Assembly: GCA_937921825.1 (NCBI GenBank)
Contig: CAKZVK010000117.1
Span: 1 to 43,456, forward strand
Source of the DNA: an uncultured Saprospiraceae bacterium
GTDB taxonomy: Bacteria > Bacteroidota > Bacteroidia > Chitinophagales > Saprospiraceae
Reading direction: 5' to 3'
Length of the DNA stretch: 43,456 bases
The notes under the pieces are model-generated. The model did not search any database, had not been told where the DNA came from, and worked only from the letters and a program-made list of their open reading frames with translations. The position numbers and the translations under genes are program-made. Positions 4,832 to 30,700 of the stretch are shown piece after piece. Position 1 is the stretch's first letter; the number at the start of each line of letters is the position of its first letter.

Positions 4832-5172
4832 ACTAGTAGGAATTGATGAATATAATGAGTTCTTTAAATTACTGAGATATGAAAAGAAATCGGGTGACGG
4901 GCTTTTGGTTTTAGAAAACTATAACATAATTGTTAAGGGGGTATTCTGGGCTTTACAAGCAACGAAATATCTCCTGGCTTATTAGGTAAGTCATGCACAT
5001 GAAAAGTCCTTTCCTAGAATAGTTTATGTATGATAAGGGAATAATGACGGCTTTAGCGTAAGCTCTCAATAATACTGTTTCTCTCTCTTTATAGCTGATT
5101 TTCCTATCAAAATGTTAATTTGACTTTCGTTTGTTTCTTTTGAGTTTGTAATTCGTTTAGAATATTGTGATT
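4832..5172. other. Intergenic region between divergent genes
   Basis: No gene is seen in these 341 bases. It must hold promoters for both neighbours. On the plus strand ttaatttg near 5115 is one base from the TAnnTTTG box of Bacteroidota promoters, but nothing decisive is visible. Confidence 0.4.
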
Positions 5173-6429
5173 ATGAAATACTTGTCCTTCGCTTTACTCC
5201 TACTCAGTAGCTCTCTGGCTGCACAGTTTGACAATATCTATTACGATAATGAAGTCTATGTAGATTACATAGAATCTATACAGTTTAGCCATGAAGGTCT
5301 TAGTCTTTCACTCCCTATCATAGATCTAAGAGGTGGACAGTTGTTTCTAGAGTTTGATGACAGAGATGGAGGCTTTAAAAATTATACCTATCATATTATA
5401 CACTGCGACAAAGACTGGAATCCTTCTCCTCTAGATGAGATAGAATATATAGATGGATTCAATGGAGAAGAAATAGATGGATTTAGATACTCTACCAATG
5501 CGTATTCTGAATATACCCACTATGAGCTAGCACTGCCTAATGAAGACCTAAGATGGTCTATCTCCGGCAATTATCTGCTTTCCATCTATGACCAGGATCA
5601 AGAAGTCACTGTGCTCACCAGACAGTTTATCGTGACCGAATCAGCTGTCTCACTAGGTGCAGATATAGTCCGACCTGATAACAGCCTGAAACGCAACAGC
5701 CACCAGGAACTAAAAGTGGCTATCAAAATGAAGGATCTGAGAGTGAGATCTCCACAAGAAGAAATATTCTTATCTATTATGCAGAATGGTAATACAAATT
5801 CTTCTTACCACAACTTACAGGGAACCTACGTCAGGGACAACACCATCTACTTTGACCAATATGATATGGTGACCTATCCTGCATTGAAAGAATTTAGAAA
5901 TTGTGATATCCGATCTCTGAAGTACAGAAGTGAATTTGTCTATTCCATAGATCAGGAAGATGGTGTGACTGATGTCCTCATGGATCTCGGAAGGAAAAGA
6001 GCGAATAAGCACTTTCATACCGAACCTGATGCCAATGGTGGTTTTATAATACAAAATAAGGACTTCGCTGATGGTGATGTCAGTGGCGAATATGTCAATG
6101 TCATTTTCACTCTAGAAGCTGAAAGAGAGTATGAAGAGAATATCTTTATCACTGGCGCCTTTACAGATTGGAAAGTCAGAGAGAAATATCAGATGGACTA
6201 CGACCTCACTCGAGGTCTATACACAAAGACCCTAACTCTAAAGCAGGGCTACTATGACTATATGTTTGCGCTAGAAAATGCTGACGGCATGCTAGAAATG
6301 GATCCTATAGAGGGCAGCTGGTATGAAGCAGAAAACGACTATCAGCTGATTGCTTATTACAGACCCTTCGGTGGGGAATACGATCGAGTGGTCGGTGTGA
6401 ATGTGGTGAATTCTAATCCGGATAATTAG
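5173..6429 (+). CDS. T9SS plug-domain (DUF5103) protein
   Basis: The protein has 418 residues from the ATG at 5173; a GTG two codons earlier is a weaker start. Residues 1-17 are a signal peptide ending LAAQ. The body matches the DUF5103 family, now named for the type IX secretion plug: an N-terminal domain with the LRGGQLFLEFDDRDGGFKNY and HIIHCDKDWNPS segments typical of the first plug domain, and a C-terminal Ig-like domain with FITGAFTDWKVREKYQMDYD, resembling a carbohydrate-binding-type fold. The Plug protein blocks the periplasmic side of the SprA translocon when cargo is absent. The many T9SS cargo genes in this window fit that role. Length matches the family. Distance from other T9SS core genes cannot be judged here. 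Confidence 0.85.
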   Translation: MKYLSFALLLLSSSLAAQFDNIYYDNEVYVDYIESIQFSHEGLSLSLPIIDLRGGQLFLEFDDRDGGFKNYTYHIIHCDKDWNPSPLDEIEYIDGFNGEEIDGFRYSTNAYSEYTHYELALPNEDLRWSISGNYLLSIYDQDQEVTVLTRQFIVTESAVSLGADIVRPDNSLKRNSHQELKVAIKMKDLRVRSPQEEIFLSIMQNGNTNSSYHNLQGTYVRDNTIYFDQYDMVTYPALKEFRNCDIRSLKYRSEFVYSIDQEDGVTDVLMDLGRKRANKHFHTEPDANGGFIIQNKDFADGDVSGEYVNVIFTLEAEREYEENIFITGAFTDWKVREKYQMDYDLTRGLYTKTLTLKQGYYDYMFALENADGMLEMDPIEGSWYEAENDYQLIAYYRPFGGEYDRVVGVNVVNSNPDN

Positions 6430-6540: not shown

Positions 6541-6727
6541 GCATCCTTTTCGCGGGCTGAGGTTCTCACTTCAGTGGGTTAGAGGGCAGAATGGCACATC
6601 CTTTTCGCGGGCTGAGGTTCTCCCTTCAGGGAGTTAGAGGGTTGAATGGCACATCCTTGGCGCGGGCTGAGGTTCTCCCTTCAGGGAGTTAGAGGGTTGA
6701 ATGGCACATCCTTTTCGCGGGCGGAGG
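6541..6727 (+). repeat. 55-bp tandem repeat array, left part
   Basis: Three full units and the start of a fourth repeat at an exact 55-base spacing (a common base falls at 6543, 6598, 6653 and 6708). Each unit carries a hairpin, ctccct-tc-agggag, followed by gttagagggttgaatggcac. In unit 1 both arms differ but still pair (ctcact with agtggg). The fourth unit is interrupted by the IS element at 6728 and continues at 8025. Confidence 0.9.
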
Positions 6728-6751
6728 TGTACCGTCCTAAAATAGGTTGAC
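6728..6751. repeat. IS terminal inverted repeat, left end (orfB side)
   Basis: It begins tgtaccgtcc and pairs with 8001-8024 at 20 of 24 positions. Confidence 0.88.
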
Positions 6752-6754
6752 AGG

Positions 6755-7651
6755 TTAATGAATAATTTCAGTCTTTAATTTATAATAGTTTTTCCATCTT
6801 TTCTTGATTGTCCCATCTTGCTTATGTGTTTTATTTGGAGTCATCATGTCACAGCTAAGGTGAGGTCTCAATTGGTTATATCTATATATCGCTTGACTCA
6901 CTGCTCGTGAAGGTTCATACTCCATCTCATTTATAAAGTGGTCAATGTATTCAGATTTTAGAATTCCATTTACTCTTTCTGCAATAGCGTTGTCTCTTGG
7001 ATTACCGTCTTGGGTCATGCTGATCTTTATCTCATAATCCTGCAATAGCTTTACATACTCATTGGAACAATATTGTATTCCTCGATCTGAATGATGAATT
7101 AATCCTCTGCATTGTTTCTCGTTTCGGAGTGCCATTTTAAGTGCTCTGATTGCATGTTCTGTTTCTAGTGATTGTCCCAGTTTGTAACCTACTATCTTGT
7201 GAGAGTAAGCATCAGTAATCAGGAATAGGTACTCGAACTTATCTTCATACTTTATGTATGTGATGTCACTGACCCATAGTTGATTAGGTTTATATGGAAT
7301 AAATTCTTTTATCAGATTTGGATATTTTTTGTAGTGATGGTACGAATTAGTAGTAACCGTCCTGCGTTTACGCTTTCTTATAAGCAATTGATTATCAGCC
7401 ATTAGGCTGAATAATTTATCACGTCCCATTTTTATTCCATTTCTGTATAAATCATCTTCTATGAGATCATATATCTTTCTTACTCCAATTCTAGGATGCA
7501 CCTTCCTGATTGCCTTGACAAGTTTCAGCACAACTTCATTACACAACTGGTTTTGAACTTGTCTTGATTTGTTCTGACTTACGGCTTGACGTGTGACACC
7601 AAACAACCTGTAGATTTTTCCTTTGCCGTATGTTGGATAAATACTACTCAT
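6755..7651 (-). CDS. IS3-family transposase OrfB (DDE integrase domain)
   Basis: The 298-residue product carries an N-terminal HTH_21-like region with the HPRIGVRKIY motif (about 54-63) and an rve integrase core. The DDE residues are visible: Asp in LWVSDITYI, Asp in IHHSDRGIQYCS, and Glu in DNAIAERVNGILKSEYI. It ends soon after RPHLSCDMMTPNKTH, the usual C-terminal pattern. Its frame is -1 relative to orfA and it is expected to be made mainly as a fused OrfAB protein by ribosomal frameshifting; its own ATG at 7651 overlaps the orfA stop. The gene appears intact. Confidence 0.95.
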   Translation of the reverse strand: MSSIYPTYGKGKIYRLFGVTRQAVSQNKSRQVQNQLCNEVVLKLVKAIRKVHPRIGVRKIYDLIEDDLYRNGIKMGRDKLFSLMADNQLLIRKRKRRTVTTNSYHHYKKYPNLIKEFIPYKPNQLWVSDITYIKYEDKFEYLFLITDAYSHKIVGYKLGQSLETEHAIRALKMALRNEKQCRGLIHHSDRGIQYCSNEYVKLLQDYEIKISMTQDGNPRDNAIAERVNGILKSEYIDHFINEMEYEPSRAVSQAIYRYNQLRPHLSCDMMTPNKTHKQDGTIKKRWKNYYKLKTEIIH

Positions 7652-7986
7652 TCTTTCGATTGCTTGGTATTTGACTTTTTTCTAATCTCTATTTTGAAAG
7701 TCTCCTCAGCTATTTCTATAATTTTTTCTGCTGCAATTCTTTTCATCTTCTCGTGTTCAAGAAGAGCTTCCAGTTCCTTAATTCTATTCTTATAATCCTT
7801 ATCATTAGATGACTCCATCTTAATTGTTTGTGGACCTAATTTACGAATCCATTTAGTGATAGTGCTATGACCTTTGATTCCGTATTTTTTTCTTACAACC
7901 TCCTTTGAACCACCTTTTAATACTTCATCAATCACTTTCAACTTTAATGATAAATCATAATGTTCGCTTGATCTTAATCCTGGCAT
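7648..7986 (-). CDS. IS3-family transposase OrfA (HTH protein)
   Basis: The 112-residue product holds an N-terminal helix-turn-helix (about 10-50, SLKLKVIDEVLKGGSKEVVR then GIKGHSTITKWIRK) that binds the IS ends, and a C-terminal heptad-like Leu/Ile stretch (about 68-100) for multimerisation, a normal OrfA layout. Near its end the codons AGA AAA AAG give the slippery site for the shift into orfB. OrfA alone is usually a regulator of transposition; OrfAB is the transposase. Confidence 0.93.
   Translation of the reverse strand: MPGLRSSEHYDLSLKLKVIDEVLKGGSKEVVRKKYGIKGHSTITKWIRKLGPQTIKMESSNDKDYKNRIKELEALLEHEKMKRIAAEKIIEIAEETFKIEIRKKSNTKQSKE
7675..7681 (-). other. A6G -1 frameshift signal in the IS
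   Basis: On the minus strand the heptamer AAAAAAG is in the phase A AAA AAG relative to orfA. A -1 slip enters the orfB frame, which stays open from there through the orfB ATG at 7651, giving a single OrfAB polypeptide of about 400 residues. Confidence 0.88.
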
Positions 7987-8000
7987 ACGTTTACTATTTG

Positions 8001-8024
8001 GTCAACCTATTTCAGGACAAGACA
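8001..8024. repeat. IS terminal inverted repeat, right end (orfA side)
   Basis: Its reverse complement begins tgtcttgtcc and matches the left end at 20 of 24 positions. Confidence 0.88.
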
Positions 8025-8113
8025 AGGTTCTCCCTTCAGGGAGTTAGAGGGTTGAATGGCACATCCTTGGCGCGGGCGGAGGTTCTCCCTTCAGGGAGTT
8101 AGAGGGTTGAATG
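8025..8113 (+). repeat. 55-bp tandem repeat array, right part
   Basis: It completes unit 4 and adds unit 5 after the IS. The common string ggttctccct falls at 8026 and 8081, again 55 bases apart. Units 4 and 5 share gcggagg where units 2 and 3 have gctgagg, while tttt and ggcg variants alternate, which suggests doubling of a 110-bp pair. Confidence 0.88.
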
Positions 8114-8245
8114 GCAATCTTTTAGAGAGCACTTCAAATTTTTCTAAAAAAATTAGACTTCAGGCATCGCTTTCCTCTTGCATGCCCATATTAAAGAGTA
8201 CAGAAGCTTCTGATATCTATTTAAATCAGATAAATTAGAGACACT

Positions 8246-9235
8246 TTGAAGAAAATCATACATAAAATCATATGGGCCGCAAGCATAAGCATGCTAATTC
8301 TTATGAACTCATGCTCTACAGACGAGTTCAGTGATTTGACCTTAATAGAACAGCCCAAAGTTGATACGATCATTGTCAATAGTGATGTCTTTGTCAGAAA
8401 TGACAGTGGATCTCAGACCTACAGAGGGGTCTACGCAGGCTGCCTCGATGCTGAATTGACGGGCGCTGGAGAGAACAATTATCAACATTTTCTGGCTTAT
8501 GGTCCAGATTTGATCTTGGAAGAAGGAGAGGCTATCTATGATGAACCAATATTTGTTTTGTTTTGGGAAACAATCGGAGAGGACCTGACTCCTGGACAAT
8601 ATCTAGCTGAAGGAAGTATCGTCGATCCACAAAGAGATACAGATGAACTAGTCTGTTTTGATCTGACGATAAGTGAAGTGAATGAATTCTTCATATCTGG
8701 TTTTTTCAATACTGTGGAGAGCAGTAATACTGTAAGGGAAGGAGAATTTACAACTCTGATCTATGATTGTGTAAGCTTAGGTATACAAGATGAAGACTTT
8801 GGAGAGTTCACCTCAGGTAGAATTACAAGATCAGAAGATACTCTGAATATTACTACCTACATGTCTGCCACTACTGCATGTCCAGACATCTTCCCTAACG
8901 AGCCAGGTGTCTTCCGAGTTATAGTCGGTGGTGGCAAACTCGAAGTAGATAGTGATGGTGATTTGCTTCTGGAAGAAGACCCGAGTTTTCTCATCCATAT
9001 AGATATCAGAGAAACTTATGAGCTGAATCAGCCACTACAAGGATATTATTATGAAGACATATCAGCATTCAGTGGGTCTGTAATCGAATATGATGAGCTC
9101 ATCACTTTTGGGAATGCAATAACTATAACCATTACCTCAGACAGTGAAGGCTTTCTCATCGGAAGCTACTCAGGCATGATAGGGAACAGAATGATACAAG
9201 GAACTTTCAGATCAGAAATCGCAACCAACTGCTAG
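8246..9235 (+). CDS. Hypothetical lipoprotein upstream of an ECF sigma gene
   Basis: The 329-residue product begins at a TTG (8246) followed by MKKIIHKIIWAAS; no ATG fits better. Residues about 9-23 are a hydrophobic signal segment ending LMNSC, a plausible lipobox with Cys-23 as the lipid anchor. The mature part is acidic, rich in Asp, Glu, Ser and Thr, and likely all-beta; no known domain is recognised. The sigma gene starts only 11 bp after its stop, followed by the membrane-barrel gene with a 4-bp overlap, so the three probably form one operon. The lipoprotein may be a sensor or target of that system; this is inference. Confidence 0.72.
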   Translation: MKKIIHKIIWAASISMLILMNSCSTDEFSDLTLIEQPKVDTIIVNSDVFVRNDSGSQTYRGVYAGCLDAELTGAGENNYQHFLAYGPDLILEEGEAIYDEPIFVLFWETIGEDLTPGQYLAEGSIVDPQRDTDELVCFDLTISEVNEFFISGFFNTVESSNTVREGEFTTLIYDCVSLGIQDEDFGEFTSGRITRSEDTLNITTYMSATTACPDIFPNEPGVFRVIVGGGKLEVDSDGDLLLEEDPSFLIHIDIRETYELNQPLQGYYYEDISAFSGSVIEYDELITFGNAITITITSDSEGFLIGSYSGMIGNRMIQGTFRSEIATNC

Positions 9236-9246
9236 TTGTAGAAGCT

Positions 9247-9801
9247 ATGGAAGATCAGATACCCAATATCATTCAAGGCTGTATCAGGCAGGAGCGGAAA
9301 GCTCAGCACCTACTCTTCCAGCAGTATGCGAGATGGGGACTGACGATCTGTAGAAGATATGTGAACAGTGAAGAGAAGGCCCAAGAAGCTTGTAATGATG
9401 GCTTCTTAAGAATATTCAAAAAGATAGACACCTTCGATGCGACCAAAGGAGAACTCAAAGCATGGATGGCTAGAATATTTATTAATTGTGCTCTGACCTC
9501 TACTAAGAAAGAAGCATTCAATTCTTCCTTTACATCTCTGGAAGATGTCAAACATGAACCCGTATCAGAAGAGGCTTTCTTTAAATTTGATGGAGAACAA
9601 ATACTAAGATTCTTAAAGTATATGCCCGTCGGTTACAAGACTGTCTTCAATATGTATGTGATGGATGGCTATAGTCATAAAGAAATAGGTGACCACTTAG
9701 GCATCTCAGAAATAACCTCTAGGTCACAACTAAGAAAAGCCAAGATATGGATCAAAGAAAATGTATCTCTTGATGCACTAAAATCAAGTCTGGAATCATG
9801 A
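9247..9801 (+). CDS. ECF-type RNA polymerase sigma factor
   Basis: The 184-residue protein has a sigma region 2 (about 20-85, including AQEACNDGFLRIFKKIDTFD and LKAWMARIFINCAL) and a sigma region 4 (about 118-170) with YKTVFNMYVMDGYSHKEIGD and HLGISEITSRSQLRKAK. Region 3 is absent, as in ECF sigma factors. It redirects core RNA polymerase to stress or envelope promoters. The next gene overlaps it by four bases and encodes a membrane protein that is the likely anti-sigma factor. RseP-type proteolysis, also encoded in this window, often releases such sigma factors. Confidence 0.92.
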   Translation: MEDQIPNIIQGCIRQERKAQHLLFQQYARWGLTICRRYVNSEEKAQEACNDGFLRIFKKIDTFDATKGELKAWMARIFINCALTSTKKEAFNSSFTSLEDVKHEPVSEEAFFKFDGEQILRFLKYMPVGYKTVFNMYVMDGYSHKEIGDHLGISEITSRSQLRKAKIWIKENVSLDALKSSLES

Positions 9802-11363
9802 AGGAAGAAAAATATATAAAAGATACCTTGTCAGGTTACGAAAGCCCCATGGATATGGAGGCGACTTGGGCTGATCTCGAAAACATCTTGGATGGCAACA
9901 AGAAAAAGAAGAGAGGCTTTTGGATATGGAGGAATGGATTACTCTTAGGGCTGGCCCTATTACTTGTAGGTGCTTTAGCGCTATGGGTTTTCATGTCCCA
10001 AAGCAACACTAACCAAACCCTCTCTGAAGTGCAGACTTCAGAAATACAAAATAACACAGCAACACAATTAAATATTACTACAACTAGCCCAATCAAAACA
10101 GAAGAACTTCCCATTACACAAACTACAGCAACATCAAATAGCAACTCAAACCAAAAAGTAAACACCGCAATTAAATCAGTCACACAAACAGCAACTCAAA
10201 AATCTAATCAGGAAATAAGCCAACCAACAAATAAAATTCAACCAACAAAACTGCAAGAACCAGTCAGCAAAAAAACTCAACTAAACTCCAACCCAGAAAG
10301 CAAAGAGTCAAGCTCTAAGAATACCATACCTGCACAAAATGCAGTAAAAGAAAATGCTCAAGTACCCACATTTACCAATCAAGTACGGAAAACAAGAACT
10401 GATGAGCAAATAAAAACAGATGAGAGATCAACAATCTCGACCGAAAACAAAAATCTTAAGTCACAAGCAGAGACACGGTCTGTAATCAATTTTGATCAGC
10501 TTGCATCATTAGGACCAGAAACGCTAGATTGGGATAGAGCACTTGTGCTGAATTTTCCTTCCATTCTCATACCACAACCGCCGACTATACGCGTCAGAAA
10601 ACCCAAACATAAAAAATGGAGACTCTCAAGCAGTCTAGCCGTAACACGTTCTTACTTTGACTTTGCCACTTCTAGCGGTCCTTCCTTGGTAGATTCGATG
10701 CCCAACATAAGAGGAACCTATACAGGTATCACCAAACCAGGTCTTGGGGTAGCACTAGAACGCATCACAAAGAATGGTCTTAAATTGTCAATAGGGTTAA
10801 ACTATCTAAATCATGCTTACAATCACTCTATAACAGATACTTTTTTATCGACGGAGCAGACGAATGTGGTTAGAACTGAGGTGTATATTTCTGACAGCGG
10901 CGCCCTCCTAGGCACAGGTGAAGGAGAAACAGTAGTCTGTACAAAAGCATATGAATGGCAGCATGATGACAATGTCAACTTGCACTCTTTTCAAGTGCCT
11001 GTAATGCTCGGCCTAGAAAGAAAATGGGGCAATCTTGATTATTCTTTTTCAGTGGGCCCTGCACTTAATTATGTCTTTAAGCAAAGTACACTTCTAGGCA
11101 CTAGTGATGAGTTGATAACCTTTTATTTCGAAGAGTATGGTGTAGACTTTGAACCAGTATTCCCTATTCATCAGGTAAGCAAGTTACTGCTTGCTGGCGC
11201 AGGAAAACTAGAACTAGGTTATCACTTACCTGGGAACATGAGATTTTTTACGGCTCTAGAAGCGAGTCGTTCTTTTGGCAATTTTGCTCATGAAGAATTC
11301 AGAGAACTAAATACCAAAATAAACAACTACGGTATCAGGACTGGACTCAGTATAAACTTCTAA
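9798..11363 (+). CDS. Putative anti-sigma factor with outer-membrane barrel domain
   Basis: The 521-residue protein has an unusual layout. Residues 1-45 are a short hydrophilic cytoplasmic part; residues about 46-66 are one strong inner-membrane helix; residues about 68-230 are a Thr/Asn/Gln/Ser-rich, Lys-containing linker with almost no structure; residues about 273-521 look like an outer-membrane beta-barrel domain, with alternating patterns, Gly-rich turns and a C-terminal Phe (IRTGLSINF). Its start overlaps the sigma gene stop (ATGA), so the pair is coupled. A sigma gene followed by such a protein recurs in Bacteroidota. Spanning both membranes is inference: the barrel could also pack against the outer membrane only after cleavage. 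The anti-sigma role is inferred from position and the short cytoplasmic N-terminus. Confidence 0.75.
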   Translation: MKEEKYIKDTLSGYESPMDMEATWADLENILDGNKKKKRGFWIWRNGLLLGLALLLVGALALWVFMSQSNTNQTLSEVQTSEIQNNTATQLNITTTSPIKTEELPITQTTATSNSNSNQKVNTAIKSVTQTATQKSNQEISQPTNKIQPTKLQEPVSKKTQLNSNPESKESSSKNTIPAQNAVKENAQVPTFTNQVRKTRTDEQIKTDERSTISTENKNLKSQAETRSVINFDQLASLGPETLDWDRALVLNFPSILIPQPPTIRVRKPKHKKWRLSSSLAVTRSYFDFATSSGPSLVDSMPNIRGTYTGITKPGLGVALERITKNGLKLSIGLNYLNHAYNHSITDTFLSTEQTNVVRTEVYISDSGALLGTGEGETVVCTKAYEWQHDDNVNLHSFQVPVMLGLERKWGNLDYSFSVGPALNYVFKQSTLLGTSDELITFYFEEYGVDFEPVFPIHQVSKLLLAGAGKLELGYHLPGNMRFFTALEASRSFGNFAHEEFRELNTKINNYGIRTGLSINF

Positions 11364-17293: not shown

Positions 17294-18616
17294 CTAGAAT
17301 AGACGTGATATATCTAAGCCCATAGCGTAGATCATAAAGAAGATCAGAACAAAGAATCCTATCATGGTGGCTTTCTCCATTACAGAATCTGGCACTTTGA
17401 TACCTGTTATGGATTCAAAGAGTAGAAACATGACGTAGCCTCCATCCAGTGCAGGAATCGGCAATAGATTAAAGAAGCCTAACAGCAATGAAAGATTAGC
17501 CGTCATCAACCAGAATCGTTCCCAGTCCCAGGTATCGCCAAACATCTTACCGATGGTGATAAAACTTCCGAGACTGTCACTGGCTTTTATACGACCAGAA
17601 AACATCTGACCGAAGGCTTTAATTTGGTCTCCCAAGAAGCTGACCGCTTTATTCCATCCTGCAGGCAAGGCTCTGCCTAGAGAGTATTTTTCTTTTTTAG
17701 TTTTTACATATTTATCAAAGCCCTGTGCTTGCACCCATATTCTTCCATCTTCTTTGGCTAGGTCTTTATTGAGTATATCAGAGCCACGTTGTATGCCTAT
17801 ACTTACAGGTCCATCATCAAGGTCTGCTAGCGTCTTAGACACTTGATGCATGTACGGTGTTGGTTCACCGTTTACTGATATAATTTTATCGCCTACTCGC
17901 ATATCCGCAGCAGCTGCGGGTCTCCCTTCAGTAACATCCGCTAAGACATACGGACATCGTGGAGCGAATAGAGGATCTCTACCATTTTCATACTTGGTCA
18001 ATTTAGAGATCGCCGCTTCGGAAATCTGCAAAGCCTGCTCACTACCATTTCGAGAAATTAGAATCGAGTTCGCCCCATTGATAACTAATTCTTTTTTGAT
18101 AAGCCCAGAACTGAATTTATCAAAAGGTACCTCCCCTACTTTTATAATTTTATCTCCATCTCTGAGGCCCAGTTCTTGTCCTAGTTCTGTGACTGCTACA
18201 CCATCGCTGACACTAGCTGGGTCTATGTAGGTTTCTCCCCAGACGAATAGCACCATAGCATATAGAAAAACTCCCAGCAAGGCATTGACGAATACACCGC
18301 CGACCATTATGATGAGTCTCTGCCAGGCTGGCTTAGACCTGAATTCCCAAGGTTGTGGTGGTTGCTTCATTTGTTCTGAATCAAAACTCTCGTCTATCAT
18401 ACCAGAGATTTTGACATAGCCTCCTAGAGGTAACCAACCCACTCCGTATTCTGTCTCACCGATTTGCTTTTTGAATAAGGCAAAGCCAGGATTGAAAAAC
18501 AGATAGAACTTTTCTACTCTAGTCTTAAACCACTTAGCCGCCGAAAAATGACCGAGTTCGTGTAAGACCACAAGGATAGAAAGACTTAGAAAAAACTGAA
18601 GAACGGTTATAATCAT
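17294..18616 (-). CDS. rseP: RseP site-2 zinc metalloprotease
   Basis: The 440-residue protein carries HELGH at 19-23 in the first membrane helix, the zinc-binding motif of RIP proteases, and the partner motif NLLPIPALDGG in a late helix supplying the third ligand. Between them are membrane helices and two PDZ-like segments (about 125-200 and 220-290). RseP cuts anti-sigma factors and signal-peptide remnants inside the inner membrane. Its size is that of E. coli RseP (450). The ECF sigma and its membrane partner at 9247-11363 are a possible client. hscB follows after 8 bp. A TAnnTTTG box precedes it. Confidence 0.94.
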   Translation of the reverse strand: MIITVLQFFLSLSILVVLHELGHFSAAKWFKTRVEKFYLFFNPGFALFKKQIGETEYGVGWLPLGGYVKISGMIDESFDSEQMKQPPQPWEFRSKPAWQRLIIMVGGVFVNALLGVFLYAMVLFVWGETYIDPASVSDGVAVTELGQELGLRDGDKIIKVGEVPFDKFSSGLIKKELVINGANSILISRNGSEQALQISEAAISKLTKYENGRDPLFAPRCPYVLADVTEGRPAAAADMRVGDKIISVNGEPTPYMHQVSKTLADLDDGPVSIGIQRGSDILNKDLAKEDGRIWVQAQGFDKYVKTKKEKYSLGRALPAGWNKAVSFLGDQIKAFGQMFSGRIKASDSLGSFITIGKMFGDTWDWERFWLMTANLSLLLGFFNLLPIPALDGGYVMFLLFESITGIKVPDSVMEKATMIGFFVLIFFMIYAMGLDISRLF

Positions 18617-22087: not shown

Positions 22088-25000
22088 ATGCACCTATCTA
22101 TCTCTGACCTAAGTCTAGAACTAAGGTTCTTACTACTATTCTTTATAGTCGGAAGTCTTCCTACTCAAGCCCAGTTAAATAAATCTGACTGGAAGAGCAC
22201 TCAGCAACTCTCCTCCTTTTCAGAACAAGCTGAAGTCCTAAAAGATGGACCAAAACATTATCTAATTTCAGAACTAGAGGTAGAAAAGGTTCTACCACAG
22301 ATGAAGTCTAGCCAGATGAATGTGTGGTTGCCTGAGCCTAATGGAGAGTTCTCAGAATATATCTTACAGCCAACTCAGGTCGTCGCCGAAGAAGTACAGA
22401 AACATTATTCTATAAAAACCTATAGAGGTATAAAGAAGGATGATCCTACTACTATTATCGCTTGCGACATCAGTGCTGAGGGATTACATGCTGCAGTATT
22501 TCAAGGATCAGAAACTTACTACATAGAACCCTATGCAAGTCAGCACAAAGCCCAACATATAGTCTACTACAAAAAAGACGTGCCCCATCACAAAGTGAAG
22601 TGCGGTGTTCATGATCATGTAGAAGAGTTAATGGAGCAGACGATCAGACCTCAGCTCAAAGCACCTGGTGTTAAAACTACTTTTAGACTAGCATTGGTTG
22701 CTGCTGGAGAATTTTCGCTACAGTTTGGAGGGACACCTTACAGCACAACGAATGTACTTGATGCCCTCGCATCCGGTGTCAATATTATCAATACCATTTA
22801 TCTCAGAGACATAGGCATTGACTTCACCTTGGTCTCTACACCAGCCTTGGTATTTCCAGACCCAGCCATAGATCCTTTTGACCTCAGTAATGATAACCAA
22901 TTACTTGATGACTGTCAGGAAACTTGTTTTGTAAATTTAGGTGTCAATGGCTTTGATATCGGGCACCTGGTGATCTGGAGTAATCCAAGTGGCTTGGCCT
23001 CTTTTGGAGTAGTTTGTAATGACTCTTCTAAAGGTTATGGCTATTCTAGTTTTAACGGATCAGTATCTGGCCTATGGGTAGATTACGTCTGTCACGAAAT
23101 AGGTCATCAGTTTAATGCCAGACATAATTTCGCAGCTAGAGAATGTCAAAATTCTACAAATGGTTTCAGATTCGAACCTGGAGAAGGCTCTTCAATCATG
23201 AGCTACGCCAATGTATGTGGTGCACCTGTGCAATATGCTCAAGGCTCTGATCCTTTCTTTCATTATGCTTCTATAAATAGGATCCAAGAATTTGTACTCC
23301 AAGATGGCACAAACTGTGGTGTGACGTCTGGAGGCACTAACACAGATGATCCAAGATCAGATGCGGGCACTAGCATTATCATTCCTCAGAATACGCCTTT
23401 TGCCTTAGTAGGCTACGGAGAAGATGCAACAGACTCATTATCTCTAAGCTACCACTGGGAGCAATATGACGGAGATTCACGTGCGACAACAGGTCTTCCA
23501 GATTGTGCTGACCCTACACAACCTCTATTTAGATTCAGACCCCCTGTGGCTGAGCCATACAGATCCTTCCCAAGTTATGATCAAGTCTTACTGGGACTAA
23601 ACAATGCAGTAGACTTTGAAAAGCTACCCTGCATAGAAAGAACCATGACTTTTTCACTTGCGGTCAGAGATAATAATATAAGCTTCGGTAGAATTACCCA
23701 TGACACAATGGTAGTCACCGTCGCTAATACAGGACCCTTTGAGCTAAGCTCGCCAAATGGAGGAGAACTCCTAACTGGTGGAGCAGCTACCGATATAACA
23801 TGGAATGTAAATAACACAGATACCCACTGTCCTCTGATAGATGTTTTAGTATCTACAGATGGCGGCGTAGAGTATACGGTGATCGCTAATGCTATTCCCA
23901 ATACAGGTACAGCTAGCGTCATCATACCCAACATAGCGTCTACTGATGCTAGAATGCTCATAAGATGTGACGTACCTGGAGGCTTCAGAGAAGGGTCTAC
24001 TTTCTATGATGTATGTGATGACAGTTTCATGATAGACGGCGCAACCTTACCTGACTTAGATGGTGATGGTTATGACAACACTGTAGACTGTGATGATCTC
24101 AATCCCATGATAAATCCAGGAGCACCAGAAATCTGTAACGGTATAGATGATGACTGCGATGGCCTCATAGATGATCTAGATCCAAATGCCGTAGGTCTGA
24201 CAAATTACTACATGGATGTAGACGGAGATGGCTATGGAGATCCTTCCACCCTCGTCACTGCATGTACTGCTCCAACTGGATTCATAACAGATGGCACTGA
24301 CTGCAACGACACCAATCCGATGGTAAATCCTGCAGCCACAGAAATCTGCAATGGGTTCGATGATGACTGTGACGGTCTTATAGATCAGGCTGACCCTAGC
24401 CTGTCGGGTTCCGCCACCTGGTATCTAGATGCTGACGGAGATGGTTATGGTGACAGCAACATCAGCACTACAAACTGTACACCTCCCGTAGGCTACGTAG
24501 CCTTAGATGGTGACTGTAATGACAACAATGCAAATATTAATCCTGGAGCAACAGAAGTCTGTAATGGCATAGATGATGATTGTGATGGACTGGTCGATCA
24601 AGCCGATCCCAATCTCGTTGGTAATTCTATTTGGTATCCAGATGTAGATGGTGATAGTTTTGGAAGCCTGACAGGGGTGATAATTTCTTGTACACAACCT
24701 ATAGGTTATGTAGCCATGACAGGTGACTGTAATGACAACAACCCTAACATCAACCCCTTAGCTCAGGAAATCTGTAATGGGTTCGATGATGATTGTGATG
24801 GACTGGTAGATGGCAATGATCCTAGTGTCACCGGTGCCTTTACGTGGTATGCAGATATAGATGGGGATGGATTTGGAAATCCGAGCAGTGCCCTACTCGC
24901 TTGCACACAGCCAGCTGGTTATGTCATCAACAATACAGATTGTAATGACTCCAACATATTTATTAATCCTTCAGCCCTAGAAGTTTGCAATGGTATAGAT

Positions 25001-27646
25001 GATGACTGTGATGGACTGATAGACCAAGCAGATCCAAGTCTTACTGGAACGCTAACTTGGTATGCAGATACTGACGGTGATGGCTATGGAAACCCTGCCT
25101 TACCGATACAGTCTTGTTCTCAGCCAGCAGGTTATGTGAGCAACAATGGAGACTGTAATGACAGTTCTGCCAGTATAAATCCTTCCGCACAAGAGATATG
25201 TAATAATATAGATGACGACTGCGATGGCCTGATAGATGGTCAAGATCCAAGTTTGGTAGGTGGTGCAATATGGTACCTCGATGCTGATCTGGATGGTTTT
25301 GGTGATCCAGTTAATTCTATTACGTCTTGTAATCCTCCCCAAGGCTACGTGAACAACAATATAGACTGTGATGATTCGAATCAAAATGTAAGCCCATCAG
25401 CTATTGAAGTTTGCAATGGTATAGATGATGACTGTGATGGACTCATAGATCAGGCTGACCCTAGTGTCACTGGCTTGACGACTTGGTATGCAGATCTAGA
25501 TGGTGACAATTACGGTAATCCTCAGAACAGCGTGAATGCCTGCTCGCAGCCTACAGGATTCGTCCTTAACAACGGCGACTGTAACGATGGAGATCCAGCG
25601 ATCAATCCTGACTCTCCTGAGATATGCAATAACCTAGATGATGACTGCGATGGACTTATAGATGGATTAGACTCTTCTCTGACGGGTACATCTATATGGT
25701 ATAGAGATTCTGATCTAGATGGCTATGGCAATCCTAATCAGACTGTGCTAGACTGCACCCAGCCACAAGGTCATGTCTCTAACAACCTAGACTGTGATGA
25801 TAATAACTCTGCAGTAAACCCTGCAGCACAAGAAATCTGCAATGGCATAGATGATGACTGCGATGGCTTAATAGATAGTGATGATCCTAGTAATACTGGC
25901 ACGAGTACTTGGTATGCTGACAATGATGGGGACGGGTACGGAGATCCTACTAATACGCTTATGTCTTGTACACAACCTTTAGGCTATATCAATAATAATA
26001 CTGACTGTAATGACACCAATCCCCTTATCAATCCTGGAGGACAAGAAGTCTGTAATGGATTTGATGATGATTGTGACGGACTAGTAGACAGTGATGATCC
26101 AGATAATCAAGGCGATGGCATTTGGTATCAAGATGTAGACAACGATGGATTTGGAAATACACAAGTGGTATTAAGTTCTTGTGTCCAACCAACTGGCTAT
26201 AGCTCAGTGCCTGGAGACTGCAACGACAACAACCCAGCTGTCAACCCCGCACAAAATGAAATCTGTAACAATATAGACGATGACTGTGATGGCCTTGTAG
26301 ACGATGCTGATCCTGATCTGAATAGCAATACTATTTGGTTTTTGGATGCTGACGGAGATGGCTATGGGACTACGCTTAGTTCTATCTCAGACTGTACACA
26401 GCCCGCTGGCTATGTAGCAAATAATACAGATTGCAATGACAACAATGCCAATGTGAATCCAGGGGCAGCAGAAATCTGTAATGGCATGGATGACGACTGT
26501 GATGGACTCATAGATAGTGACGATCCTGATGCAGCTGGCACGGTAACCACATGGTACTTAGATAACGACGGTGATGGCTTTGGTGATCTCGCTACAGAAT
26601 TAGAATCTTGTACACAACCACAAGGCTATGTCTTCAATGCCACAGATTGTAACGATAACAATAGCGCTATTTTCCCCGGTGCACCAGAATTATGCAACGG
26701 ACTAGATGATGACTGTGATGGTTTACTGGACGGAGCCGATCCTGACCTACAAGGAGGCGAAATGACTTACTACCAAGATAATGATAGTGACGGCTTTGGC
26801 AATGGCGCAGTATCAGTTCAGGCTTGTACACCTCCAGCTGGTTATGTATTAAATAATACCGATTGTGATGACACCAATGGAAGTGTCAATCCTTCAGCAC
26901 AGGAAGTTTGCAATGGCATAGATGATGACTGCAATGGACTCATAGACATCGATGATCCCAATATCGCAGGAGTGGGCTTATGGTTTGCCGATCTGGATAT
27001 GGATGGATTCGGAGATGCAAATAACACTGTACTAGATTGCAGCCAGCCAGATGGTTATACTTTCAATAATGAAGACTGTGACGATACCAATGCTGCCATA
27101 AATCCAGATGCTATAGAACTATGCAATGATATAGATGACAACTGTGATGGACTCATAGATGATGCAGACCCTACCCTAGACGGATTAGTAACCTATTATG
27201 CAGATCAAGATGGTGATGGTTTTGGTGATCCAGACAGAGCACTTTCAGCTTGTGAAGAACCGAGTGGCTTTGTAGAAAATGATCAAGACTGTGATGATAC
27301 CAATCCCGATGTCAACCCAGCAATCCAAGAAGTGCCGAATAACGGTATAGATGACGATTGTGATGGTCAGATAGATGACATGGTCAGCACCTTAGATCTT
27401 ACAGTAGATACTTGGGCGATTTATCCTAATCCTGCAAGAGCATTTATGCATATCAATGGAGCGATCCAGACAGGTGTAGATCTAAAATTATTCAGTATCC
27501 AAGGTCAACTCTTAGAAAGTAAGACGAACATAAGCTTACCCAATAAAATAGATATTAGAAATCTAGCTGAAGGGACTTACATCCTAGAGCTGCAGCACAA
27601 TGATGAAAAAATACGTTCTGTACATAAGATTATAAAGATGCACTAA
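22088..27646 (+). CDS. Secreted M12B-like metalloprotease with 16 MopE-type repeats and T9SS tail
   Basis: The 1852-residue protein has a signal peptide (to about residue 29, ending TQAQ), a propeptide (about 30-190), and a zinc protease domain (about 192-412). The zinc site is HEIGHQFNARH at 336-346 and the Met-turn is SIMSY at 369-373, as in reprolysin-like metzincins of Bacteroidota. An Ig/PKD-like region follows (about 415-650). Residues 657-1764 are 16 repeats of about 69 residues, each with a DxDGDG-type loop and a CNGIDDDCDGLID core; such MopE-type motifs are thought to bind metal, probably calcium. Residues about 1770-1852 are a type A T9SS sorting tail (AIYPNPA, then EGTYILEL and HKIIKMH). 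It is exported by T9SS and attached to the surface or released. The target substrate is unknown. Confidence 0.93.
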   Translation: MHLSISDLSLELRFLLLFFIVGSLPTQAQLNKSDWKSTQQLSSFSEQAEVLKDGPKHYLISELEVEKVLPQMKSSQMNVWLPEPNGEFSEYILQPTQVVAEEVQKHYSIKTYRGIKKDDPTTIIACDISAEGLHAAVFQGSETYYIEPYASQHKAQHIVYYKKDVPHHKVKCGVHDHVEELMEQTIRPQLKAPGVKTTFRLALVAAGEFSLQFGGTPYSTTNVLDALASGVNIINTIYLRDIGIDFTLVSTPALVFPDPAIDPFDLSNDNQLLDDCQETCFVNLGVNGFDIGHLVIWSNPSGLASFGVVCNDSSKGYGYSSFNGSVSGLWVDYVCHEIGHQFNARHNFAARECQNSTNGFRFEPGEGSSIMSYANVCGAPVQYAQGSDPFFHYASINRIQEFVLQDGTNCGVTSGGTNTDDPRSDAGTSIIIPQNTPFALVGYGEDATDSLSLSYHWEQYDGDSRATTGLPDCADPTQPLFRFRPPVAEPYRSFPSYDQVLLGLNNAVDFEKLPCIERTMTFSLAVRDNNISFGRITHDTMVVTVANTGPFELSSPNGGELLTGGAATDITWNVNNTDTHCPLIDVLVSTDGGVEYTVIANAIPNTGTASVIIPNIASTDARMLIRCDVPGGFREGSTFYDVCDDSFMIDGATLPDLDGDGYDNTVDCDDLNPMINPGAPEICNGIDDDCDGLIDDLDPNAVGLTNYYMDVDGDGYGDPSTLVTACTAPTGFITDGTDCNDTNPMVNPAATEICNGFDDDCDGLIDQADPSLSGSATWYLDADGDGYGDSNISTTNCTPPVGYVALDGDCNDNNANINPGATEVCNGIDDDCDGLVDQADPNLVGNSIWYPDVDGDSFGSLTGVIISCTQPIGYVAMTGDCNDNNPNINPLAQEICNGFDDDCDGLVDGNDPSVTGAFTWYADIDGDGFGNPSSALLACTQPAGYVINNTDCNDSNIFINPSALEVCNGIDDDCDGLIDQADPSLTGTLTWYADTDGDGYGNPALPIQSCSQPAGYVSNNGDCNDSSASINPSAQEICNNIDDDCDGLIDGQDPSLVGGAIWYLDADLDGFGDPVNSITSCNPPQGYVNNNIDCDDSNQNVSPSAIEVCNGIDDDCDGLIDQADPSVTGLTTWYADLDGDNYGNPQNSVNACSQPTGFVLNNGDCNDGDPAINPDSPEICNNLDDDCDGLIDGLDSSLTGTSIWYRDSDLDGYGNPNQTVLDCTQPQGHVSNNLDCDDNNSAVNPAAQEICNGIDDDCDGLIDSDDPSNTGTSTWYADNDGDGYGDPTNTLMSCTQPLGYINNNTDCNDTNPLINPGGQEVCNGFDDDCDGLVDSDDPDNQGDGIWYQDVDNDGFGNTQVVLSSCVQPTGYSSVPGDCNDNNPAVNPAQNEICNNIDDDCDGLVDDADPDLNSNTIWFLDADGDGYGTTLSSISDCTQPAGYVANNTDCNDNNANVNPGAAEICNGMDDDCDGLIDSDDPDAAGTVTTWYLDNDGDGFGDLATELESCTQPQGYVFNATDCNDNNSAIFPGAPELCNGLDDDCDGLLDGADPDLQGGEMTYYQDNDSDGFGNGAVSVQACTPPAGYVLNNTDCDDTNGSVNPSAQEVCNGIDDDCNGLIDIDDPNIAGVGLWFADLDMDGFGDANNTVLDCSQPDGYTFNNEDCDDTNAAINPDAIELCNDIDDNCDGLIDDADPTLDGLVTYYADQDGDGFGDPDRALSACEEPSGFVENDQDCDDTNPDVNPAIQEVPNNGIDDDCDGQIDDMVSTLDLTVDTWAIYPNPARAFMHINGAIQTGVDLKLFSIQGQLLESKTNISLPNKIDIRNLAEGTYILELQHNDEKIRSVHKIIKMH
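24056..27382 (+). repeat. Tandem repeat coding 16 MopE-type units
   Basis: The coding repeat has a period of about 208 bp. Each copy encodes an Asp-rich DGDGYG loop, a Cys, a DCND loop, INP, and the CNGIDDDCDGL core. Copies differ at many third positions, so the array is old and codon-diversified, unlike the SprB array downstream. Confidence 0.9.
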
Positions 27647-27714: not shown

Positions 27715-30700
27715 TTATTCTAAAATTATCATTTGCTTCATCGAAGTAAATCCTCCGCTCGCCAATCGATAATAGATTATCCCTGTAGTACCAAGGTCAC
27801 GCTTATTAACTTCTACCGCATGCTGGCCTGCCTCAAAATCTTGGAAAATCTCTTTTATTATTTTGCCCGTGATATCATAGAAGGTTAGCAACACTTCTCC
27901 CTGTACTGGAATTTCGAACTCTATAGTCGTTTTATCTAAGAAAGGATTTGGTCTATTTTGATAGAGCCTGTAGGCACTTTCTAAGTTGCTTACCAATTGA
28001 ATATTCTTGAGCTCCAAAAACTTTCCTACATACGCTTCAGAAGTAACTGTTGTGCCTAGATCTATCATACTAGACAAGCTGCCTCCCTTCTCTGCGACTA
28101 AGGTTAGCTCTAAAAGATATGCATCACTCGACCTAATGTAATCGTTGTTGTAGCTCAGTCGTAGACTAGAACCTGTAAGGTGAATATTTTCTTCTGCTAT
28201 ATCACTGGCATTCACCGCCACTACTTTTAACCCATCAAACTCTAAACCTAATTGATAGCCATAAATCTCAGTTTCAGATGTAGTAAATTGAACTGTAAGT
28301 TCTTCTCCTACCTGTACATCGCGATCAGCGAATCGTAACTCCATAAGATTATCTGCTCTTCCTTCTAGCTTGGAGGAGAAACCATTGGGAATATTGGTAT
28401 TATCTACATCACCTACTTTGACACCTATGAAATTTTCTTCCATCATCTCAGACTCTAGATTGGTGATAGTAAGAGAATCTCTGTAGTTCCATGGATTATA
28501 CAAATCCAATCCCTGACTTTTATCTATAAATTTCCATGAGCTATTACTCACTAACGTATCTGTGATACCTAAGATTAGTTTCCTGAGTTCTACGAGATCA
28601 GACCCATTTAATTGTCTATCACCATTGACATCTGCAGCAATGATTTTATATGGAGAATCTAGTAAGCGTTGACCTAATACATGTCGCTGGATCTGTATTA
28701 AATCTAAGGTGCTCACCCCATTCAGGTAATCAATATCTTTTTGCCCCTTAATGATATAATCATTGTGCATAGGGTTATCCTGAAAAGCATAGACTCCATC
28801 CTCATCAGACATCATAGCGGACTGAGAACCAGTTACTACATTAGCGATGCTTGTAGACACTTCATCTATGGACAAGCCATTCTCAGTTGTATATCTGCCT
28901 TGGATAGTAGCTCGTGAACCGACTAGCCTAGGTTTTATTACTGGCTGAATTAAACAGAAATCATTATTGCCACATTCATCCCAAACGTAGATCGCAAGTG
29001 TCACTGCTCCCTCGATATTAAGATCGTCTTCAGTAAAAATTCTACCTGCACTTTGTGTGGCTGTATTCCAACTATCTGCTCTTCCTTCTTCGAAATCTAT
29101 CAGTGTCGCTGCTGCACCTGTCACAGGTTCATAGTACCCTGAAGCAATTGGTGGTTCTGTAGATGAGAATGTAAATCTCAACTGAGCTTGTTCTGTACAA
29201 TTATCTGAAGCACCACCATTGAAATCTATTGCCCATAATTCGAAGGTGCCATCAGAGGTATCTATAGCTGTTGTTACTCCTACACAATACGGTATCGGAA
29301 CAGTCCTATCTATTACTCGTATGATCGAAGTCGTAACTCCTTCATTTCCACAAGCATCAGTAGTAGACCAACTAAGGAGGTGACCAGACTTAGTAGCAGG
29401 CACATCCGACAGCTGAAGGTTCAAGGTATCTCCTGTAATACTTTCAAAAGTCTGCACAGCATCGACAACGCCGTCATTAAAATAGTCTATTGCTACTGTC
29501 CAACTCAATGCCTCCGAAGCACAATTATCAGAATCTGATGCAGAAACAGGAATGGATACATTATCTAGATTACAGTCCGTCCCAGCTAGATCAAAAACCA
29601 TATCTGCGGCTACATTTATAACAGGTGCAGTATCATCTGATACTTTGACATTTTGTACATGAGTATACTTGCCCTGATCACCGTTAGTCTGGTCAAATAG
29701 ACACCAATCTACGACAGTCCAAGTATTTCGGATGGCATAACAGAAGTTCTCTATCTCTGGAAAAGTATCTGACTCCACAGCTATCTGGATACTGCTACAA
29801 CTCGGTGTTGTGAACCTTGGTTCTTCTATAACAGCACTGCTACAATCTAAGGTGACATCAGCAGGCCATGCAATCGTATTAGGATCCAAAATGTCAGGTG
29901 CTGTAAATACAAAGTACTGTGTACATATAACTGTAGACCCTTCTCTAAATTCTCTTCTCATTGCCCCATAGCCACAGATAGAATCGTAAGGCGGGACCAT
30001 GTCATCTATACCATCGTTATCATAATCAAACAAAGGTTTTTCATTTGCTGGCTTAGAAGCTGGCGAGATGATCGTCTCATAATCTAGATCTAAACTACCA
30101 CAACTTCCGCTGCCGCTAGGCACCCCTGTCACTGTTAGATCATCTATTGACTCACCGCAAGTCATCATCATTCCTTCAGGGCAGGTCAGCTCATCCATCG
30201 ACTTATCTTGAATCTGCACTTTTGATCTTACTGTATTAAAATTGCCGCAGTCATCGGTTACTCGCAGCTCTACTTCTACTTCAGCCCAGCCCGACTCATT
30301 CATATCAGCACAACAGAAATGGACAGCATTACCCCAGTCAGTATCCAAAGTATTACAATGACCATCCATTCTTCTGACCTCTAAAGTCACTGCACTACAG
30401 TTATCATATGATCCATTGTCGATAGCTGCAGCAGTTACGAGGCCGAATACTTCATCGTCATCTATGCTGTGTACCGTAATAGCAATAAATTCTTCTGCTA
30501 TAGCATTAGGGCTGGTTTCATCTTTGATGCTGACTGTCAAAGTATCAAAAGATACATTACCGCAACAATCTTCTGCAGTGAAGTAAATTTCATGAGTCCC
30601 CACACCTAGGTCTATCGCTGTAAAGCCAGTAGCCATATTTCCTACTATGGAGTGATCTCCAGAAGTACCTGTTACATTATATGTCGCTAAAGAATCACAG

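Follow-up and report, generated by a model that had tools for sequence, protein, structure and literature searches.

The closest described counterparts of the system reported here are anti-sigma factors of Bacteroides and Phocaeicola. According to the available part of their report, the Dma proteins of Bacteroides thetaiotaomicron consist of a sigma-binding domain, a helix, a disordered tether and a barrel, and are encoded beside genes for extracytoplasmic function (ECF) sigma factors of group ECF21; dma2 lies in a three-gene operon whose other genes rise upon dma2 deletion, as do das2 and its neighbours, and Dma1 acts through its target nigD1, bt_4005 (PMC13088901). The excerpts available for ecfO-reo (name from PMC13114119) place this pair in Phocaeicola vulgatus and a similar one in B. 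fragilis, with an anti-sigma factor predicted to span from the cytoplasm to the cell surface (PMC9308784, PMC13114119). In these same sources, loss of Dma or Reo raises target genes (PMC13088901, PMC9308784, PMC13114119). Here we analyze an operon in a 43,456-nucleotide stretch of DNA from an uncultured Saprospiraceae bacterium (contig CAKZVK010000117.1, hereafter the window; its genome is G000). The operon encodes a lipoprotein, an ECF sigma factor and a third protein, the partner, which is predicted to join the sigma factor to the outer membrane. The operon probably forms a Dma/Reo-type switch that is complete in itself and senses at the outer membrane.

The initial annotation knew of no detailed study of such an architecture; this was wrong, as Dma1/Dma2 and EcfO/Reo are published. 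The operon is of that known kind, as judged against published descriptions rather than the sequences of Dma1-3. As in the Dma systems, so far as the report is available, the partner has a stub, one helix, a long disordered tether and a barrel next to an ECF sigma factor gene, and the host is likewise a member of the Bacteroidota. The available text gives the dma2 operon three genes, as in the window, but its third gene is BT_1557 (DUF4943; PMC13088901), whereas for the window's lipoprotein Pfam returns nothing with an E-value of 1 or lower and NCBIfam a single, unrelated match at 0.16. Twelve pairs of this shape occur in G000, in contrast to the three Dma proteins named in that part of the report. 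With EcfO/Reo, again from excerpts, the operon shares an anti-sigma factor whose outer-membrane β-barrel lets it span cytoplasm to surface. It differs in that the Reo-side regulon includes NigD proteins, while the window's lipoprotein matches no NigD domain of Pfam or NCBIfam, and in that an envelope-stress response is proposed there, while no stress link is known for this operon. To the known kind the analysis adds a lipoprotein-led triad, repetition of that triad, co-evolution of stub and sigma factor, and a type IX secretion variant. More distantly, the RseA/RseP sigma-E and FecR-type systems have membrane-anchored anti-sigma factors that answer envelope signals through periplasmic domains or separate outer-membrane receptors; the anchoring is shared, but in the window a single chain holds the barrel itself. 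The features are as follows.

8130..8168, + strand: promoter-like block; -35-like CAAATTT at about 8135-8141, then TTCAGGCATC at 8159-8168
8246..9235, + strand: lipoprotein gene, 329 aa, TTG start; C-STDEF after the lipobox; probable surface lipoprotein
9247..9801, + strand: ECF sigma factor gene, 184 aa; Pfam and NCBIfam matches
9798..11363, + strand: third gene, encoding the 521-residue partner; stub, helix, tether and barrel; paired with the sigma factor
9798..9911, + strand: putative sigma-binding stub, residues 1-38; more conserved than linker and barrel, co-evolving with the sigma factor
9936..9995, + strand: inner-membrane helix, residues ~47-66, N-terminus in (KKKKR before it); from sequence, inside model helix 20-87
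9996..10646, + strand: disordered periplasmic tether rich in Q, N, T, S and K, residues ~67-283
10647..11357, + strand: eight-stranded outer-membrane β-barrel, residues 284-520, ending in LSINF; from AlphaFold2 and Foldseek

Architecture of the partner protein

The partner begins with a 38-residue stub that ends in KKKK, passes through one hydrophobic helix and a disordered linker, and finishes as a barrel. The initial annotation had this order of parts right and the linker too short, at 160 residues instead of about 215 (67-283). The AlphaFold2 model, calculated from an alignment of 27 sequences with the closest orthologues left out, has eight strands over residues 284-520. Its mean predicted local distance difference test (pLDDT) of 63.7 and predicted template modeling (TM) score of 0.46 are low because of the linker, where pLDDT stays below 50 over residues 70-231 and is patchy to 277. 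From residue 281 onward, 16 of 25 ten-residue blocks reach at least 81 and the other nine lie at 43-77. A sequence search of the PDB yields nothing useful (one match at E 0.16). Foldseek returns 47 PDB matches with E-values of at most 0.001, which include NspA, Ail and OmpX. The top match is OmpA (9fzc; E 3.2e-7), with a TM-score of 0.67 by target length and 0.25 by query length and a root-mean-square deviation of 8.7; by target length, OmpA 1bxw scores 0.67 and NspA 1p4t 0.66. The C-terminal part is thus predicted to be a barrel, as had been proposed.

It is very improbable that the partner is a soluble periplasmic β protein on a membrane anchor with no barrel in the outer membrane. In favor of such a protein, the Pfam OMP_b-brl_2 match (E 0.0014) falls, at 19.2 bits, under the 27-bit cut-off. 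The same family, however, is matched at E 0.01 or better by 28 of the 77 partner proteins of alignment A3, which holds the window's own (one of the 28) and 76 of the 77 downstream open reading frames (ORFs) found at 80 related loci. The terminal Phe, the eight-strand model and the Foldseek matches to OmpA, NspA, Ail and OmpX also speak against it. Taken with the co-evolution described below, the barrel model and fold match leave the earlier proposal, that a single chain joins the outer membrane to the ECF sigma factor, well supported as a prediction. Neither of the outcomes that the initial annotation would have taken as refuting it turned up in this analysis, which modeled single chains.

Co-evolution of the stub with the sigma factor

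The product of the second gene is a sigma factor (Pfam Sigma70_r2, 5.5e-13; Sigma70_r4_2, 4.5e-11; TIGR02937, 3.6e-18). Related loci provide 207 distinct sigma cores, 198 of them with a downstream ORF; an early hydrophobic helix is present in 188 of these 198 partners, and 186 of the 188 carry a Trp in the stub. Mean-field direct coupling analysis was applied to the 165 pairs in which the helix starts at residue 28-66, the other 23 being excluded. The 20 strongest couplings between stub and sigma factor average 1.24. This value is attained by none of 22 random re-pairings (0.812, sd 0.036) and by none of 22 re-pairings within genomes (0.903, sd 0.046), a control in which 81 of the 165 pairs, from 23 of 107 genomes, could be moved. 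A separate, earlier set of 12 random re-pairings gives 0.82 (sd 0.036). The adjacent membrane helix, which shares the same history, remains at control level (0.84 vs 0.80 and 0.84), and the stub holds 24 of the 30 strongest couplings when its number of columns predicts 17.

The couplings fall into two groups. Stub residues E4, I7 and L11 couple with sigma residues I119, V138, D140, L162 and K166 (window numbering), which lie inside Pfam region 4, and the segment E15-D32 couples mainly with R17, F24, L32, T33, R36 and Q46 of region 2, R17 sitting just before the Pfam boundary. There are exceptions, such as M18 with Q161. Because the N-terminal end of the stub couples with region 4 and E15-D32 mainly with region 2, the pattern suggests that the stub clamps both regions of the sigma factor.

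None of the 76 sigma ORFs, of which three longer than 215 residues were inspected, is fused to a partner. The stub motif is repeated in tandem in L103 (6675-8726), L227, L240 and L089, with three to five matches each to a crude motif that overcounts where Trp lies close to the helix. Visual inspection puts the partners with two or more stub units at about 19 of 198.

The lipoprotein-led operon and its proposed switch

The three ORFs lie on the + strand at the places given in the initial annotation: 11 bp separate the lipoprotein and sigma genes, and the sigma gene overlaps the third by 4 bp (ATGA). An FtsX/MacB-type permease gene on the other strand ends against the operon downstream. The triad occurs in the same order in genomes G003 and G001 of the same genus. 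In G011, also of this genus, the end of one contig encodes the lipoprotein, the sigma factor and 33 N-terminal residues of the partner, while a partner without its start lies at the end of another; we take these pieces as one broken-up operon. Such conservation means that the arrangement is not due to chance. L062, from an uncultured Saprospiraceae bacterium that is the nearest named relative, has the triad as well, plus a second one that is truncated by the end of the stretch.

The sigma factor is 76-80% identical across the three same-genus genomes and 61% identical to that of L062 over residues 8-182; genes flanking the operon in relatives are 47 to 75% identical. Against the G003 and G001 orthologues, the partner shows 66% and 58% identity in the stub, 28% and 18% in the linker, and 33% and 29% in the barrel. 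The lipoprotein retains 37% identity in G003; in G001 and G011 part of it aligns, at 23% identity. With sigma factor and stub this similar and linker, barrel and lipoprotein this divergent, the cytoplasmic half appears constrained and the envelope half fast-drifting, which is what a switch that stays the same while its sensor changes would be expected to show.

The pair is also repeated within G000. Sixteen sigma factors match at 1e-6, and 12 of them, the window's included, precede a protein of 382-521 residues with one early helix; a lipoprotein is encoded directly upstream in six of the 12. A barrel profile built from alignment A4 matches nine of these partners (L158, L166 and L167 are unmatched), while Pfam barrel families match few, two families finding three of the 12 each at E 0.1.

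The signal sequence of the window's lipoprotein ends in a lipobox-like MNS-C, and Cys23 is invariant in an alignment of the window's sequence with four others. Its AlphaFold2 model, from an alignment with one relative, is unusable (mean pLDDT 28.3). Upstream lipoproteins were counted as those of at least 200 residues directly before the sigma gene, in 100 pairs with at least 2.4 kb of upstream DNA, and a match to the A4 profile defined the barrel type. They precede 23 of 62 barrel-type pairs and one of the 38 remaining pairs (Fisher p 6e-5). The A4 loci, which necessarily match the profile made from them, make up 23 of the 62 barrel-type pairs; outside A4 the figure is 16 of 39. Counts over all pairs (16/125 barrel, 1/8 long with terminal strand signal, 1/16 other long, 0/38 short, 0/9 type IX, 0/2 cut) were set aside because many loci had too little upstream DNA.

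The triad lipoproteins have an export-like signal. The third residue after the lipid Cys is acidic in 23 of 24 triad lipoproteins, as against 17 of 85 other predicted lipoproteins at the same loci, and at least two of the five places after the Cys are acidic in 21 of 24 and 14 of 85, respectively; one of the 24 had its Cys re-sited by hand. A superseded scan of 14 triad and 103 other lipoproteins shows the same trend; it missed some, including the window's, and mis-sited one. In the part of the source available, the surface export signal of lipoproteins is given as K-(D/E)2 or Q-A-(D/E)2 after the lipid Cys (PMC5080379), which SKEEY in orthologue L048 fits. The barrel-type association and this signal strengthen the earlier suggestion that the lipoprotein may act as sensor or ligand.

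It is quite possible, if somewhat doubtful, that the lipoprotein is instead only an output of a Dma-type switch, as NigD1 is for Dma1, and that the barrel alone senses the membrane or a surface ligand. Dma1 is reported, in the text available, to act through nigD1, bt_4005 (PMC13088901), no upstream lipoprotein was scored in 39 of the 62 barrel-type pairs, and the lipoproteins vary in length (248-1283 aa) and domains (among 11 upstream proteins scanned, CarboxypepD_reg in four, SdrD_B in two and none in the window's). However, the lipoprotein gene opens the same operon, and the protein is found almost only with barrel-type partners. Its orthologues also diverge as fast as the barrel, unlike the sigma factor and stub, which is more in keeping with a partner than with a fixed effector.

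Upstream of the operon, an alignment of the 5' regions of the window, G003, G011 and G001 shows an AACTTT-like stretch together with TTCAGGCATC or similar sequences; in it the block stands before the lipoprotein gene (loci L048, L049 and L051 besides the window's). In L062, where the aligner did not put it in the same column, TTCAGGCATC was located by eye and motif search 60-70 bases before the lipoprotein start, which brings the relatives that share the promoter-like motif to five. The window holds a single exact TTCAGGCATC site, and TCAGGCATC occurs in 16 of 185 loci searched, six of which are this operon. YTCAGGCATC has 16 sites in G003 vs five for the reversed control. In each of G000 and G003, two sites are intergenic (in G000, both before a gene), and one of the two belongs to this operon; the motif search for a regulon in these two genomes finds no clear second target. 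The result fits, and does not prove, a small and perhaps self-directed regulon. An IS3-like element (6734-8018; integrase core at 6758-7651, a small HTH ORF and 18-nt inverted repeats that are 94% complementary) lies upstream and leaves the promoter-like block intact; it splits a 55-bp direct-repeat array (AGGTTCTCCCTTCAGGGAGTTAGAGGG...) at 6560-8116.

In the sensing switch that we favor, partner residues 1-34 would inhibit the ECF sigma factor: helix 1 (~3-11) would lie against region 4 and the Trp24 segment (~15-32) against region 2. The disordered tether would span the periplasm to the OmpA-like barrel in the outer membrane. There the lipoprotein, encoded by the first gene of the sigma factor's operon and probably displayed on the surface, would be the barrel's partner, as a ligand-binding or occupancy subunit. 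Disturbance of barrel or lipoprotein would free the sigma factor to transcribe its operon, starting at the conserved promoter upstream, and sensor and lipoprotein would thereby be rebuilt. For the release step, proteolysis of the stub or tether seems likeliest.

The initial annotation assigned release to an RseP-type protease encoded in the window (given there as 17294-18616, located here at 17297-18616; Peptidase_M50, 1.3e-52). The corresponding alternative, an RseA-like stress sensor under regulated intramembrane proteolysis with this M50/PDZ protein as site-2 protease, draws on its presence in the window and on the single-helix anchor, as in RseA, but we consider it unlikely. The gene lies ~6 kb from the operon on the other strand, and the 18-kb stretches around the operon in G003 and G001 contain no counterpart, the G003 stretch ending too early to judge. 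In G001, where gene order diverges from the window just before the M50 gene, it is not beside the operon. No site-1 protease or cleavage site was identified, though none was sought. M50 proteases are also housekeeping genes, and proximity therefore says little. The link to RseP is accordingly unsupported.

Several results weigh against the proposed switch. The co-evolution is shallow (effective number 163), which makes single residue pairs unsure; two of the top 15 couplings fall in the membrane helix, and the strongest stub coupling (1.54) is exceeded in one of 12 random re-pairings (1.56), so that only the ensemble is to be trusted. The other ten of the 185 loci with TCAGGCATC are outside the operon, and in G000 YTCAGGCATC shows no enrichment (14 sites vs 12 for the reversed control). 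With 39 of 62 barrel-type pairs lacking a scored lipoprotein (L175 and L185 have one by eye), the lipoprotein is not obligatory. When these two are counted, the association holds within Saprospiraceae (22/37 barrel vs 0/5 non-barrel, Fisher p 0.018) and fades outside the family (3/25 vs 1/33, p 0.31); common descent thus explains part of it, and the pooled p of 6e-5 makes it look stronger than it is. In the window's lipoprotein itself, STDEF carries the D-E pair without the Lys of the published signal. Finally, a BLAST comparison of this lipoprotein with the one in L062 is not significant (E 2.6), so this subunit may be replaced over time.

Partners with type IX sorting domains

Ten of the 77 partners in A3 match CHU_C, the type B sorting domain of type IX secretion, and ten match TIGR04131. 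Nine were confirmed singly, above cut-off and in the C-terminal part (L063, L067, L079, L082, L102, L105, L108, L111 and L125); L107 is likely the tenth, from a custom profile and its sequence. These proteins retain the stub and the membrane helix. Nine of the hosts are named Flavobacteriales or belong to genera or families placed there, and that of L102 is given only as Bacteroidetes. The sorting profile has no match among partners from genomes of the window's order. SprA is present in all ten genomes with type IX partners and in G000, and in none of 14 control genomes; SprA is common in such bacteria, which makes this a weak test.

Among the papers available to it, our literature search found no report of anti-sigma factors with a type IX sorting domain. 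The nearest case is PorA, a sorting-domain protein that affects PorXY-SigP signalling: as in the variant, cargo with a C-terminal sorting domain affects an ECF sigma factor, but the available part of that report does not describe stub, helix and sorting domain in one chain (PMC7712824). In the type IX variant the anti-sigma factor would itself be type IX cargo, and export status would therefore set sigma activity. We propose, tentatively and with some doubt, that the ~30-residue stub, in some cases tandem, is a Bacteroidota module joined to at least two surface tethers, either an OmpA-like barrel that has a surface lipoprotein to itself, as in the window, or, mostly in Flavobacteriales, a type IX (type B) sorting domain, and that co-evolution insulates the stub-sigma pairs of a paralogous set of switches in G000 from one another.

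Other genes of the window include one for a type IX secretion plug protein (PF17116, 7.9e-38; 5167-6429), which lies upstream of the IS3-like element and has an orthologue ahead of the triad in G003, G001 and G011, and one for a 1852-residue reprolysin-like metalloprotease (22088-27646) that carries 16 stretches of MopE-type motif and a tail for type IX sorting. A very long ORF of 3544 residues occupies 27715-38349 on the - strand.

How surface signals pass across two membranes in Bacteroidota is largely open. If our reading is right, the Dma/Reo systems, few of which have been studied, would come to include a triad of lipoprotein, barrel and sigma factor that recurs several times in one genome. 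The reading would also offer a model, open to test, of the way in which the stub grips the sigma factor, and would suggest another design, with type IX secretion in place of the barrel.

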